NCBI RefSeq assembly: GCF_000474745.1
Contig: NZ_ASJR01000012.1
Coordinates: 1-64,000, forward strand
DNA length: 64,000 nt
Direction of reading: 5' to 3'
From: Chitinivibrio alkaliphilus ACht1
Lineage (GTDB): Bacteria > Fibrobacterota > Chitinivibrionia > Chitinivibrionales > Chitinivibrionaceae
Position 1 is the first letter of the stretch. Each line of letters begins with the position of its first letter. Positions 10,317 through 15,841 of this stretch are shown one piece after another. The translations under genes and the position numbers were made by a program. The notes under the pieces were generated by a model. That model ran no database searches and was not told the origin of the DNA. It saw nothing but the letters and a program-made list of their open reading frames with translations.

Positions 10317-10352
10317 TTGTATAAGGGTACACCTTTTTTTGGAGTAGCATGT

Positions 10353-11843
10353 ATGGGTAGAGTAAAAGAGTGGGTTGATCAGGTTATTCGGCCTGAAGAG
10401 ATATCCCGATATTTAGAATCAGACGGTAACGATTTTATCCGCGATACAGAAATTGAGCAAACCCTTAGGGAAAATGCTTCGCCGGATCCGGCCTATATCC
10501 GTGATATTATCGCCAAATCAAAATCCCTGGAAACCTTATTACCTCGGGAGACAGCAGCCCTCCTCAATGTAACCGACCCGGAACTCATTGAAGAAATGAA
10601 AGAAGCTGCCATGGCCATCAAGCGCCATGTTTATGATAATCGGGTTGTTACTTTTGCCCCTCTGTATATGTCCAGTACCTGTGTCAATAACTGTACCTAC
10701 TGCTCATTTCGAGAAGAGAATGCAGACACGGTTCGCCGTGTATTGCGTTTAGACGAGGTTGAGCGAGAAATACAGACCCTTGCTGGTGAAATCGGGCATA
10801 AACGGCTTATTGTGGTTTACGGTGAACATCCAGATTCAGATGTTTCCTATATTGCAGAAACGGTGAAGGCCATTTATGGTGCAAAATACCCAACACGAAA
10901 AGGGTACGGGCAGATACGTCGAGTGAATATTAATGCCGCTCCCCTTTCTATTGCAGACCTTTCGACTCTGAAAGATGTTGGTATTGGTACCTACCAAGTG
11001 TTTCAAGAGACCTATCATCATGAAACGTATGCCCGTGTGCATCCCGCAAATACCTTGAAGGGAAATTATGCTTGGCGACTGTATGCCATGGATCGGGCCA
11101 TGGAAGCTGGTATCGATGATGTCGGTATCGGGGCGCTCTTTGGTCTCTACAACTGGAAATTTGAAGTTATGGGACTTCTTGCGCACACCCGTCATTTAGA
11201 AGACCGTTATGGTGTTGGGCCACACACCATTAGTTTTCCCCGGTTAGAACCAGCCAATAATGCACCGGGAATTGCGGAAAGTTCCCCCTATCATGTGACA
11301 GATCATGAGTTTGTACGAGCAGTCTTAGCACTTCGGCTGTCTGTTCCTTACACAGGAATGATATTAACGGCTCGTGAAGATGCTGCTTTACGTGATGCGG
11401 TCATTCCTTTAGGGATCACCCAGACTGATGCCTCAACACGAATTGGCTTGGGGGCGTATGCGCAGAAAGATACAGCCCAAGAAGCACATCGGCAACAGTT
11501 TATTTTGGGTGATACCCGTTCCTTGGATGAAGTTGTGCGTGCCCTTGCCAAGCAGGGTATGATTACTTCTTTCTGTACAGCGGGATACCGTTGTGGGAGA
11601 ACGGGGGAGAAGATTATGGATGCTTTGAAGAGTGGCCATGAAGGGCAGTTTTGTAAACTCAATGCGATTATCACGTATCGGGAATGGCTTGATGATTTTG
11701 GTTCAGAGGAAACGCGGCGTATTGCCGAGCCAATTATAAAAGAGGAAATACGCGAAGTGAAACGAAAGAATCCTGCCATGTATAAGGCTCTAATATCGTA
11801 TTATGAAAAAACAAAAGAGGGTGCTCGGGATCTTTACTTTTAG
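10353..11843 (+). CDS. hydG: HydG-type radical SAM tyrosine lyase with altered C-terminal cluster motif
   Basis: A 496-residue HydG-family enzyme. In [FeFe]-hydrogenase maturation HydG cleaves tyrosine to supply CO and CN for the H-cluster. The radical SAM motif CVNNCTYC gives Cys110, Cys114 and Cys117, and the HydG-typical TYQVFQETYH is present. The C-terminal auxiliary-cluster motif, normally CX2CX22C, reads CTAGYRCGRTG...C: Cys408 and Cys434 are in place, the middle Cys is Gly411, and a new Cys414 lies three residues on. ATG at 10353 has GGAG 8 bases upstream. No hydE, hydF or hydrogenase gene is nearby, so a diverged role is possible. It overlaps the convergent next gene by 4 bases. Confidence 0.88.
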   Translation: MGRVKEWVDQVIRPEEISRYLESDGNDFIRDTEIEQTLRENASPDPAYIRDIIAKSKSLETLLPRETAALLNVTDPELIEEMKEAAMAIKRHVYDNRVVTFAPLYMSSTCVNNCTYCSFREENADTVRRVLRLDEVEREIQTLAGEIGHKRLIVVYGEHPDSDVSYIAETVKAIYGAKYPTRKGYGQIRRVNINAAPLSIADLSTLKDVGIGTYQVFQETYHHETYARVHPANTLKGNYAWRLYAMDRAMEAGIDDVGIGALFGLYNWKFEVMGLLAHTRHLEDRYGVGPHTISFPRLEPANNAPGIAESSPYHVTDHEFVRAVLALRLSVPYTGMILTAREDAALRDAVIPLGITQTDASTRIGLGAYAQKDTAQEAHRQQFILGDTRSLDEVVRALAKQGMITSFCTAGYRCGRTGEKIMDALKSGHEGQFCKLNAIITYREWLDDFGSEETRRIAEPIIKEEIREVKRKNPAMYKALISYYEKTKEGARDLYF

Positions 11844-13096
11844 AGTTTTCCCTCATAGATATGGTCTCCGGCTTGGTGGAGCTTTTGCTGCACATTTTCC
11901 AAGGTTGGCTGATTTGTCGTCAGAACCGGTATGTATTCGCCGAATTCCTTACGAAGACCTTGCATGATGCTCCCCACATTGGCGGCCTTAGTTACGGCAT
12001 GTACCTGAATAGGGTTTGTTTTTGATGTAGGGTCAAGAAGCACGAGAAAGTTTGTAATGCGCTCATCTTTTTTAAGATAGTCTACCAAGGGGGATCGGGG
12101 GTGAGTGCTTTGGCATTCTTCCGACGGGGTAACTGTCTCTGTTACGGCAACTTCTCTTTGCCATATCGCAGAAGGGGAGATTTGTAACCGCGGGGAGGTG
12201 CGTCCGCAGGCACAGGGAGTTGTGGTAATTGCACCATGAACTCCTGTTTTACAGCGCAGAAGGGGGAACCCTTGTATACCAAAGGGGGTAATAACAATCT
12301 CGCCTGTCTCTCCTTCTGGTAAAAGAGCGCCTTCCGGAGAAACAATTTCAAAATACCCGAGTTCCGGATGGATGTGAAACCCCGTTTTCTCTGGGCATTG
12401 AGCGATAAAGGTTGAACAGAGCGGGAAGTGGATAATTTCTATAGCTGAGTCCCCGTGAAGTTGTTCATATTCTTTTCTCCATTTTAACGGAGCGAATATA
12501 TCGTGAAGAACAATTGTGCGTAGTTTCTTCATGGGAAGATGTTGGGCATAGGCGTGGAGCGTCTGTGTTGTCCCGATAAAGGCATTTGCTGAAAATTGTT
12601 TTGCCAAGGCGATACTTTTCTGTGTGGGCTTCACGGAGAGACGCAGGGTGTTCGTATGAAGCGATTCCAAGGCTTTCATGGTTGAAATACCGAGAGAGTT
12701 TCCTTCTTCAATAGAGAGGGCTTGTAGGACACGATCTTCCTGTTCAATACCATTCATATGGAGAAAGAGCGAGAGGTCGTAGGCGCGCCGATCGACATCG
12801 GATGTGTCAAGCATGAGCAAGATGGGTGCTTTTTCTGCCTTGTGTTCTATACAGATTGATTCCCGTACCGAACCATACTGAGGATACTCTTGTTCCAGAA
12901 GTGTTACCGCCTCTGCATGGCTCATGCAGGGGAACTCTTCGGGGAGTGTTCCCTGTGCAAGGAACGAGCGCATTTTTGAGTTATGGGAATAGCGTTCCCG
13001 CATGTGGGTGATATGGTTTCCAAAGGCACGCATGCTCCGCTCTTGTATTTCATTGTACGAGAGGAGGTCCCAGGAGAAGTGTGGTTTAAATGTCAT
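11840..13096 (-). CDS. PaaK-like adenylate-forming protein, probably degenerate
   Basis: A 418-residue protein resembling phenylacetate-CoA ligases (PaaK family of AMP-forming enzymes). The N-terminal helix around SYNEIQERSMRAF, the GETGEIVITPFG core and CACGRTSPRL, followed by a C-terminal small domain, fit that family. The expected Ser/Thr/Gly-rich P-loop (TSGTTGxP type) is absent: the corresponding part reads LLMLDTSDVDRRAY. The ATP-binding core therefore looks lost or rebuilt. It may be an inactive ligase-like binding protein or use different chemistry. SD GAGGG lies 7 bases before ATG 13096. It is convergent with hydG and lies 75 bases downstream of the argF-KaiC operon on the same strand. 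Confidence 0.7.
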   Translation of the reverse strand: MTFKPHFSWDLLSYNEIQERSMRAFGNHITHMRERYSHNSKMRSFLAQGTLPEEFPCMSHAEAVTLLEQEYPQYGSVRESICIEHKAEKAPILLMLDTSDVDRRAYDLSLFLHMNGIEQEDRVLQALSIEEGNSLGISTMKALESLHTNTLRLSVKPTQKSIALAKQFSANAFIGTTQTLHAYAQHLPMKKLRTIVLHDIFAPLKWRKEYEQLHGDSAIEIIHFPLCSTFIAQCPEKTGFHIHPELGYFEIVSPEGALLPEGETGEIVITPFGIQGFPLLRCKTGVHGAITTTPCACGRTSPRLQISPSAIWQREVAVTETVTPSEECQSTHPRSPLVDYLKKDERITNFLVLLDPTSKTNPIQVHAVTKAANVGSIMQGLRKEFGEYIPVLTTNQPTLENVQQKLHQAGDHIYEGKL

Positions 13097-13171: not shown

Positions 13172-13546
13172 TTATTCAGAAAATAGTTTCTTCACACTGT
13201 CTATGAGTTGTTGTTTGCCAAAGGGTTTTGTGATATAGGCATCGGCACGCATGACATGAAGCCCTACTACGGCATCAAACTCTTCAGATTTTGCCGTAAC
13301 AATTGCCACCGGTATTGTGGAAAAGTCGGGGTCACTCCGTAGTTTTTTATAGAGTTCCCATCCACTCATTTGGGGCATGGTGAGGTCAAGAAGAATCGCC
13401 TGAGGGTTGCATTTTCGTGCTTCTTCAAGTGCGTTCAGAGGATTACTTACAGAGTATACATCAAAGTTTTCCGTCTCAAGGACCATGGTCATGATCTCTG
13501 TAATATCTTCATCATCTTCCACAATGAGAATTCGCTTTTTTATCAT
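13172..13546 (-). CDS. stand-alone response-regulator receiver protein
   Basis: A 124-residue CheY-like receiver domain without an output domain. The acidic pocket (Glu10, Asp11, Asp12), phospho-acceptor Asp54 in LLDLTMP, switch Thr84 and Lys107 in TKPFG are all present. It is the last gene of the argF-KaiC-TM-TM operon, starting 4 bases after the preceding stop. No histidine kinase lies in the operon, so its kinase must be elsewhere. It probably acts through protein contacts, perhaps with the KaiC-like ATPase encoded three genes upstream; that link is inference from the operon only. Confidence 0.9.
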   Translation of the reverse strand: MIKKRILIVEDDEDITEIMTMVLETENFDVYSVSNPLNALEEARKCNPQAILLDLTMPQMSGWELYKKLRSDPDFSTIPVAIVTAKSEEFDAVVGLHVMRADAYITKPFGKQQLIDSVKKLFSE

Positions 13547-13549
13547 AGA

Positions 13550-13843
13550 CTAACCTCGCATATCTTCGTTAAAGAGCCAGCTCCAGTAGCGTACCGCTAC
13601 GGGCAGTGAAAGTAGGGATGAAGCTCCTCGTATACCAAGGGCTATAAGATGAACACGTTCCATGCCGTCCACACCCTTTGCAAATATACTCAAGAGGGAC
13701 GCTATTGTGATCAGGAAGGCGGAAAAATAGAATAGTTTATAATGTGGTTGTATCATCAGGGCTTCGCCAATACGGCGACTAAGGTAGGCGATTACAAAAA
13801 GAAGCGCCACAAAACTGAGATCAAGGAGGTATATCATATCCAT
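13550..13843 (-). CDS. small three-helix membrane protein
   Basis: A 97-residue protein with about three hydrophobic segments (roughly 5-25, 38-56, 65-85) and a positively charged YLSRRIGEA loop. It is not recognised as a named family. It lies 2 bases after the next membrane gene and 3 bases before the receiver gene. With its neighbour of equal length it may form a small membrane complex serving as sensor or anchor for the KaiC-like protein. That role is inferred from the gene order. Confidence 0.75.
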   Translation of the reverse strand: MDMIYLLDLSFVALLFVIAYLSRRIGEALMIQPHYKLFYFSAFLITIASLLSIFAKGVDGMERVHLIALGIRGASSLLSLPVAVRYWSWLFNEDMRG

Positions 13844-13845
13844 AG

Positions 13846-14139
13846 TTACTTCCGAATCTGTTTCATGGTGTAATACAAGACAATGCCGTTCCAGAGTGAA
13901 AGAATGGCTCCCACGGCAAGTAAGAAGGAGGTTCCGTGTTGCGCAAGGGGGGTGCCTATGAAGTTAAGGGCCATGGCAGCAATAAGGCAGACCATGGCAA
14001 TAAGGAAGCCACGGGTAAACGTTGCTGAATCCAGCTTCTTTTTATAAAATTGTGCGATCCCATACAGAAACCCCTGTATTCCTACAATAGAAAGAAGGTA
14101 CAGGGACTCAAAGAGCAGGGGTAGTGTGAGTGTTTCCAT
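13846..14139 (-). CDS. small three-helix membrane protein
   Basis: A 97-residue protein with about three hydrophobic segments (roughly 8-28, 44-62, 68-88) and a basic FYKKK loop after the first. It has the same length and topology as the following gene, but I see no clear sequence identity between them. The start lies 5 bases after the KaiC-like stop. Family not recognised. Membership of the operon argF-KaiC-TM-TM-REC is clear from the spacing. Confidence 0.75.
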   Translation of the reverse strand: METLTLPLLFESLYLLSIVGIQGFLYGIAQFYKKKLDSATFTRGFLIAMVCLIAAMALNFIGTPLAQHGTSFLLAVGAILSLWNGIVLYYTMKQIRK

Positions 14140-14144
14140 GGGTA

Positions 14145-14918
14145 CTACTTTTTTCCGAATACGTTCATGAAGGCTTCTTGCGGTTTTCGGTGGGTGATAC
14201 CGCTCATAATCCCCTCATGGCCTTCAAAAGTCTCTTCGACTTCAATTCCCGTAGGGGTAATTGCATACTGGCGAATATCCTTGTCGTGTTGACTTCCGCG
14301 CATTTTTAAAATAAGTAAGGCTTTACGAATGGCACTTTCAACCTCAACGTAGCGAAGAAGAATATACGTATCAACCACAAAGGGGGTTTTGCTGGTGATG
14401 CTATTTGGAACCTGTCCCAGTAAGGCATCGTTTTCCTTCAAAAGAACTGAGGTAACCCCTTCTCTTTTAAGGGCGTTAATAAATCGCCGCTCAATATCGC
14501 GTACCTCATAATGGTCTCGCGTGAGATATTCAAAGTGGGTCATACTGTCTATGGCAACCCGTTTAACATCGTACTCTTCAATGAGGGAGACGAAATCTCC
14601 TTCAGGATTTTCAATTTCATGGAGGGTTGTTTCTGGATCTGAGAAGATGACCCGTAACATACCCTCTTTCTCAAGGGCTCGTAGATCCCAACCCAATTCA
14701 AGGGCGTCATGGTAGAATTGTTGCGGAAACTCCTCAAAGGTAATGATAAGACCCGGTTCATTGTATTTTACAATGCCATTATAGATAAACTGCATTGCCA
14801 AGGTTGTTTTTCCCGTCCCGGGTGCTCCTTCAATGAGATTTGCAGACCCCGCAATAAGACCACCGCTGATCATATTGTCAAAGGCTTGAATCCCTGTTTT
14901 TGCTCGGTGAGAACTCAT
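14145..14918 (-). CDS. KaiC-like single-domain RecA-fold ATPase
   Basis: A 257-residue protein with one KaiC/RadA-type ATPase domain. Walker A is GAPGTGKTT (31-39), the catalytic glutamate pair lies in ITFEEF (Glu62, Glu63) and Walker B is VAIDS (121-125). The C-terminus adds about 30 residues beyond the core. Clock KaiC has two such domains, and single-domain relatives are usually signalling ATPases of unknown output. The ATG overlaps the argF stop as ATGA, so translation is coupled to an arginine-biosynthesis gene. Two membrane proteins and a receiver follow at 2-5 base spacing. Confidence 0.88.
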   Translation of the reverse strand: MSSHRAKTGIQAFDNMISGGLIAGSANLIEGAPGTGKTTLAMQFIYNGIVKYNEPGLIITFEEFPQQFYHDALELGWDLRALEKEGMLRVIFSDPETTLHEIENPEGDFVSLIEEYDVKRVAIDSMTHFEYLTRDHYEVRDIERRFINALKREGVTSVLLKENDALLGQVPNSITSKTPFVVDTYILLRYVEVESAIRKALLILKMRGSQHDKDIRQYAITPTGIEVEETFEGHEGIMSGITHRKPQEAFMNVFGKK

Positions 14919-15841
14919 TGGTGTGCCTCAAGGAGAAAGGTGATAATTGATTTATGTGCATGGAGGCGGTTTTCTGCCTCATCAAACACAATGGATCGTC
15001 CACTATCTATAATGTCTGCAGAGACTTCGTCTCCACGGTGAGCTGGGAGGCAGTGCGAGAAGAGAGCATGATCTGGCGCATGCTTCATGAGTTCTGCGTT
15101 TACTTGGTAGGGTGCAAAGATTGTGTTTCTGTCTTGAGCTTCATCTTCCTGTCCCATGCTGGCCCACACATCGGTATAGACAAGGTCGGCGTGAGATACT
15201 GCTTGAGTGGGAGAGGTGGTAAGGTGAATTTTTCCGCCACTTTGGCGACACAGAGATTGTGCTTTTTCCACGGCGGATTTTGGCGGCTCATAGCCGGGGG
15301 GAGTACAGATGGTTATTGTATGCCCAGTAAGGGCGGCATAAAACATGTGAGAGACGCAAACGTTATTTCCGTCACCGATGTATGCCATGTGTATGGTCTC
15401 ACCCCGAAAGTGTTCCCGCAGAGTAAGCCCAAGGGCAATTGATTGACACGGATGATACTCGTCGGTTAAGGCATTAATGACGGGGATATGCGCACTTTGT
15501 GCAAGTTTTTCCACGGCCTGGTGAGAAAAGGTTCGCACCACAAGCAGGTGCACCCAGCGGTCTAAATTTTTGGCCATGTCCTCAATGGATTCACGCTCTC
15601 CAAGACGGCCGGTGTTTGCGGCCATACTTAGAGCATTTCCTCCAAGCTCAAATATGCCTGTTTCAAAGGTGATTTTTGTTCGCAGGGATGGCTTGTCGAA
15701 AATGAGTACTGCACTTCTTCCACCGAAAATCTCTTTTTGTTCACCCGTGTAACGATCTTTCTTAAGCGTTTCAGCCATGGTGACAATTTCAGTGATTTCA
15801 GCGGGTGAAAAGTTTTGCAGGGTTAAAAAATCTCTTTTCAT
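14915..15841 (-). CDS. argF: ornithine carbamoyltransferase
   Basis: A 308-residue cytosolic enzyme that makes citrulline from ornithine and carbamoyl phosphate in arginine synthesis. KPSLRTK (carbamoyl-phosphate loop, SxRT type), the HPCQSIAL stretch and the ornithine-loop HCLPAHRG are clear. Length is normal for ArgF. It heads the operon that continues into the KaiC-like gene with a 4-base overlap. argH lies 3 kb away in another operon and argG is not in the window. The divergent spacer to spoVG holds its promoter, but no clear ARG box is visible. Confidence 0.96.
   Translation of the reverse strand: MKRDFLTLQNFSPAEITEIVTMAETLKKDRYTGEQKEIFGGRSAVLIFDKPSLRTKITFETGIFELGGNALSMAANTGRLGERESIEDMAKNLDRWVHLLVVRTFSHQAVEKLAQSAHIPVINALTDEYHPCQSIALGLTLREHFRGETIHMAYIGDGNNVCVSHMFYAALTGHTITICTPPGYEPPKSAVEKAQSLCRQSGGKIHLTTSPTQAVSHADLVYTDVWASMGQEDEAQDRNTIFAPYQVNAELMKHAPDHALFSHCLPAHRGDEVSADIIDSGRSIVFDEAENRLHAHKSIITFLLEAHQ

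Follow-up and report, generated by a model that had tools for sequence, protein, structure and literature searches.

KaiC-family ATPases are common in bacteria outside the cyanobacteria, though their roles there are mostly unknown. In the cyanobacterial clock (KaiABC-SasA-RpaA), KaiC has histidine kinase and receiver partners, and the locus described here, which lies in a 64,000-nucleotide stretch of Chitinivibrio alkaliphilus ACht1 DNA that was analysed as a whole (the window), is alike in this general outline. The two also share the KaiC fold, the Walker motifs and the catalytic glutamate pair, but the present module is without KaiB, has one KaiC domain with no serine/threonine acceptor pair, and includes membrane partners. 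ArlH (FlaH) of the archaellum is likewise a KaiC-like ATPase at a membrane platform, a platform that we infer for the present module; unlike ArlH, the KaiC studied here falls far below the ArlH cut-off and has no recognizable ArlI or ArlJ neighbours.

Archaeal KaiC-like ATPases have been put forward as hubs of signal transduction (Makarova, Galperin and Koonin 2017, via PMC5847659), and they are linked with receivers and other signalling proteins as in our locus, the fusion of a receiver (REC) domain to KaiC being given there as restricted to Methanosarcinaceae (PMC5847659). The CirA protein of Haloferax volcanii, a KaiC homologue, acts on the transcriptional regulation of motility and shape; CirA/CirD are archaeal, and the accessible text describes no membrane partner of the type reported below (PMC13286277). 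KaiC homologues in Chloroflexi are also on record (PMC5520375). KaiC-centred signalling is therefore already a known idea in archaea (PMC5847659). What appears to be new is a bacterial module in which a KaiC with a characteristic C-terminal tail is combined with two conserved small membrane proteins, TMa and TMb, and these two proteins themselves. No description of the module or of TMa and TMb was found in the open-licence literature.

Layout of the locus and its ATPase

The first-pass annotation, made from the sequence of the window, had reported five packed minus-strand genes between 13172 and 15841. The open reading frames are as claimed, with intergenic gaps of 5, 2 and 3 bases (KaiC/TMa, TMa/TMb and TMb/REC, respectively) and 4 bases (ATGA) shared by the argF stop and the KaiC start codon. 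The features of the region are as follows.

14915-15841, minus strand: ArgF (ornithine carbamoyltransferase; PF02729 and PF00185), probable upstream operon companion, outside the module proper
14145-14918, minus strand: single-domain KaiC-family ATPase of 257 residues (PF06745) with a candidate docking-type tail at its C-terminus, KPQEAFMNVFGKK
13846-14139, minus strand: TMa, 97-residue membrane protein with three helices (alignments and AlphaFold2); conserved LIARFYxxK where helix 1 ends on the inner side
13550-13843, minus strand: TMb, 97-residue membrane protein with three helices (alignments and AlphaFold2); conserved loop LSxRLGxxxKxxPYYR and conserved end YWxWLxxE
13172-13546, minus strand: stand-alone receiver (REC) of 124 residues without an output domain (PF00072); phospho-Asp in ILLDLTMP
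11840-13096, minus strand: PaaK/FlxY-like adenylating enzyme, apparently degenerate, downstream companion (NCBIfam NF045666, E 6.8e-22; no Pfam match)
10317-11843, plus strand: HydG, [FeFe]-hydrogenase maturase (TIGR03955, 448.7 bits; cut-off 312)

The HydG gene is convergent with the argF-KaiC-TMa-TMb-REC operon. A promoter and terminator scan returned no more sites than were found in shuffled sequences.

The KaiC-like protein matched PF06745 with an E-value of 9.6e-54 (182.6 bits; cut-off 26.6). Its Walker A motif GAPGTGKTT (G31-T39), catalytic glutamate pair E62-E63 and Walker B residue D124, all noted at first pass, are invariant in an alignment of 24 sequences from relatives, and its mean column identity in the relatives' alignments is 78%, as against 44% for TMa and 47% for TMb. 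Circadian KaiC proteins are its closest solved relatives, so that a Kai-type timer or proto-clock had to be considered. However, the protein has a single domain where circadian KaiC has two, and it scored 153 with the circ_KaiC model, for which the cut-off is 546. Moreover, the phospho-acceptors S431/T432 of circadian KaiC align with P179/F180, F180 being invariant among the 24 sequences, and KaiB (PF07689) was found neither in the genome of the window nor in its family (41 genomes searched). Since both KaiB and the KaiC-type phospho-acceptors are missing, we rejected a Kai clock, and any timer of this kind appears extremely improbable. The invariant Walker A, E62-E63 and D124 residues, taken together with the replaced acceptors and the lack of KaiB, suggest instead that the ATPase should bind and hydrolyse ATP without an autophosphorylation cycle of the KaiC type.

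KaiB itself does occur in eight of the 41 genomes searched, with two copies in three of them (L214 and L215 among the examples), and in several genomes its coordinates are close to those of separate two-domain KaiC genes. From gene content and position, we take these pairs to be Kai-like systems of Fibrobacterota that are independent of the KaiC-TMa-TMb module.

The resemblance to ArlH raises a different alternative, namely that KaiC acts here as ArlH does in the archaellum and that TMa and TMb are parts of an assembly or motor platform and not of a signalling device. The KaiC homologue ArlH exerts control over the ATPase ArlI, the partner of the membrane protein ArlJ (PMC12488501), and the module adjoins chemotaxis-type genes in Actinomycetota. 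Yet the ArlH/FlaH models gave only 46 and 48 bits with the present ATPase, against cut-offs of 215 and 194; neither a motor ATPase nor a pilin or ArlJ-like gene could be recognized in the loci read; and the partners that recur are receivers, histidine kinases and a protein resembling helix–turn–helix (HTH) regulators. We consider a motor platform unlikely.

The small membrane proteins and the KaiC tail

The first-pass description of two 97-residue three-helix proteins agrees with AlphaFold2 models built from alignments of relatives, in which both TMa (pLDDT 88.8) and TMb (pLDDT 93.4) form three helices. Neither protein had a Pfam or NCBIfam match above cut-off, the best matches lying below it, and a Foldseek comparison of the models with the PDB gave nothing at E ≤ 0.001. 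A relationship of TMa to a fragment of SecY was discarded: the Pfam match (E 0.0026) is below cut-off, occurs in only one of 50 members and is accompanied by stray matches to MFS and further families of membrane proteins, which points to an artefact of hydrophobicity. A profile comparison of TMa with TMb (hhalign) gave a weak alignment over helices 1-2 with a probability of 79%; this likeness may reflect an old duplication, making the two distant paralogues, or a common hydrophobic composition.

In both families positively charged residues follow helix 1 and lie at the end of helix 3 and the C-terminus, a placement that predicts an N-out/C-in topology. With this orientation the best conserved residues (L21, S22, G26, Y35, Y86, W87 and W89 in TMb; I28, F31, Y32 and M92 in TMa) all lie on the inner side; the loops on the outside are short and variable. 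Such a pattern fits better with a docking platform than with a ligand-binding receptor.

KaiC proteins that adjoin TMa and TMb end in a short F-x-x-[A/V]-F segment, KPQEAFMNVFGKK in the window, MADSFVEAFVKR in Chloroflexota and EIDAFVEVFGKK in Actinomycetota. The motif was present in all 95 distinct TM-adjacent KaiC sequences, in none of the 24 two-domain KaiC proteins from the same genome scan and in none of eight members of the single-domain clade that lack TM neighbours; these counts are of a motif first noticed in the same data, and many of the sequences counted are related. A stricter pattern had missed two of 112 loci and was loosened once to the present form. Where one genome carries KaiC paralogues (G168, G651 and Actinomycetota), the presence of the tail tracks that of the TM neighbours. 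When the association was placed on the tree, only two independent changes were found and both agree with it, a number with which a sign test cannot reach significance. Binding of the KaiC tail to TMa/TMb is thus a strong lead from sequence comparison, but not a proof.

Conservation in Fibrobacterota and the argF link

The first-pass proposal of a signalling or scaffold module depended on the genes being neighbours in related genomes and on the small membrane proteins being conserved. Of 39 genomes sampled from the window's order, 35 have KaiC at 61-72% identity (one match being a fragment), and almost every locus read there has the genes in the order argF-KaiC-TMa-TMb-REC. A second Fibrobacterota lineage, whose KaiC is 55% identical, has the same arrangement, and both TMa and TMb are conserved in relatives as well as in other phyla. 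The module is evidently co-inherited, and since nearly all carriers keep its order and other phyla have the set as well, the gene set is not a chance association.

The receiver of the window matched PF00072 (E 1.5e-25), and the aspartate recognized at first pass is kept in relatives, most of which have at the same place receivers that are 47-58% identical to it; the gene is missing from the site in two genomes (G002 and G004). In most relatives a second receiver follows the first and is itself followed by a UvrA-like gene, recognized by sequence and not by a profile. Both are replaced in the window's family by the adenylating-enzyme-like gene, which is found at the same place in L036, L037, L056 and L057 and only in this family. 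The relatives' copies match FlxY_rubin with E-values of about 1e-124; the much lower score of the window copy and its lack of a Pfam match make it look degenerate.

From the coupling to argF the first-pass annotation had suggested a tie to arginine or carbamoyl-phosphate status, in other words a KaiC complex that reads or tunes arginine synthesis through ArgF. The window ArgF matches both ornithine carbamoyltransferase domains (PF02729 and PF00185) and is the only ArgF-like copy in its genome, the other match being 27% identical. In addition, argF is immediately adjacent to KaiC in nearly all Chitinispirillia loci with a contig reaching upstream and in every one of the seven loci read from the second Fibrobacterota lineage. 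Since most Fibrobacterota loci that were read have argF next to KaiC, co-transcription of the module with argF is probable in this phylum. However, no Chloroflexota or Actinomycetota locus had argF next to the module, and in G005 and G037 the module lies at the same place beside spoVG without it. Together with G011, these two genomes retain KaiC-TMa-TMb-REC-REC and have a divergent ArgF elsewhere (30-41% identical); in G011, where the contig ends just upstream of KaiC, loss of argF from the site is our deduction. Nor is the argF/KaiC overlap conserved, the gap in relatives varying from about −11 to 117 bases. The four-gene set KaiC-TMa-TMb-REC occurs in Fibrobacterota both with and without argF beside it. 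Coupling to arginine was rejected as the general function, and arginine or carbamoyl-phosphate sensing seems very unlikely. Judged by gene neighbourhoods, argF is a dispensable companion specific to Fibrobacterota and not a part of the module.

Recurrence in other phyla and proposed function

In one scan of 85,000 species genomes, KaiC proteins of this type were found at 48-59% identity in Anaerolineae and relatives (Chloroflexota) and at 47-48% in Actinomycetota. In Anaerolineae, secA and then an HTH-like protein of 125 residues precede KaiC, TMa and TMb; a histidine kinase sometimes comes next, and an adenosine deaminase-like gene follows. The secA and deaminase genes were identified by reading the sequence, and the HTH assignment rests on weak matches. 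Some Chloroflexota modules include a multi-GAF histidine kinase. In one class of Actinomycetota the order is KaiC-REC-TMa-TMb-PAS histidine kinase; a histidine kinase adjoins the module in all 15 complete loci (PAS-HisKA-HATPase in the two scanned), and the receiver is of the same type as that of Fibrobacterota (REC1 profile, E about 1e-40). TMb was found in 16 of 31 genomes of this class, in 67 of 298 sampled Anaerolineae genomes and in three of 251 genomes drawn across Chloroflexota. A search of ten genomes with other KaiC matches (FCPU426, Bacilli, Clostridia, Armatimonadota and others) yielded no TMb, which counts as weak evidence.

At six Chloroflexota loci (L192, L193, L204, L206, L207 and L209) TMa and TMb lie beside a secA-like gene with no adjoining KaiC, most of them with the HTH-like protein. 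KaiC of the module type was not found in genomes G418, G606, G668 and G555. The retention of the HTH-like protein with TMa-TMb after loss of KaiC in some Chloroflexota suggests that the TM pair touches this protein directly or is the primary sensor. Taken with the missing receiver in G002 and G004, the absence of KaiC in some Chloroflexota also indicates that no single partner is indispensable.

The same retention could mean that the system arose as a membrane tether for an HTH-like regulator, which KaiC would release in an ATP-dependent manner, and that the receiver replaced this regulator in Fibrobacterota. In nearly all Chloroflexota the HTH-like protein is next to KaiC, as it also is in Actinomycetota paralogues, where one KaiC belongs to a TMa/TMb module and another stands beside the HTH-like protein without TM genes. 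Against this origin, a search of Fibrobacterota found no such HTH-like protein, and the HTH fold itself is weakly supported; we give a tether of this kind a small but appreciable chance.

KaiC, TMa and TMb form the conserved unit, accompanied by a stand-alone receiver in two phyla, by histidine kinases in two and by the HTH-like protein in one. That the same parts recur in shuffled order and between different flanks in three phyla is the main evidence, and strong evidence, that KaiC, TMa, TMb and their partners work together, and the set has the appearance of an undescribed membrane-bound signalling device. We put a probability of roughly 55% on a KaiC-family ATPase whose tail docks it on a membrane platform of two proteins and which is connected to a His-Asp relay. 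KaiC would form an ATP-driven ring whose tails dock on the inner face of the TMa-TMb platform, the face indicated by the conserved inner loop and helix ends and by the short, variable outer loops. Either the membrane or the platform would set the ring's ATP/ADP state, and the partner would read it. In the window this partner would be the receiver, phosphorylated by a putative histidine kinase encoded elsewhere; in Chloroflexota it would be the HTH-like protein, which would be retained on the membrane or set free from it; and in Fibrobacterota argF would contribute transcription, not function. The nucleotide state of the ring would most likely be passed in this manner to the His-Asp relay or to a DNA-binding partner, although we infer both the direction of flow and the identity of the signal.

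It is possible, and we propose it only tentatively, that the module represents a new class of membrane signalling complex in bacteria: a tail-docked KaiC ring on two dedicated three-helix proteins would be an ATP-driven switch responding to membrane state, with receiver, histidine kinase or HTH-like outputs that differ by phylum. Its occurrence in three deep phyla provides concrete candidates for KaiC binding partners in TMa and TMb, and deletion of the tail would be a specific and cheap mutation for the coupling of KaiC to the membrane and to two-component signalling.

In the Actinomycetota loci L165-L170 dnaX-like and chemotaxis-type genes flank the module, and a gene for a peptidoglycan-binding-like protein comes after it, as recognized from the sequence.
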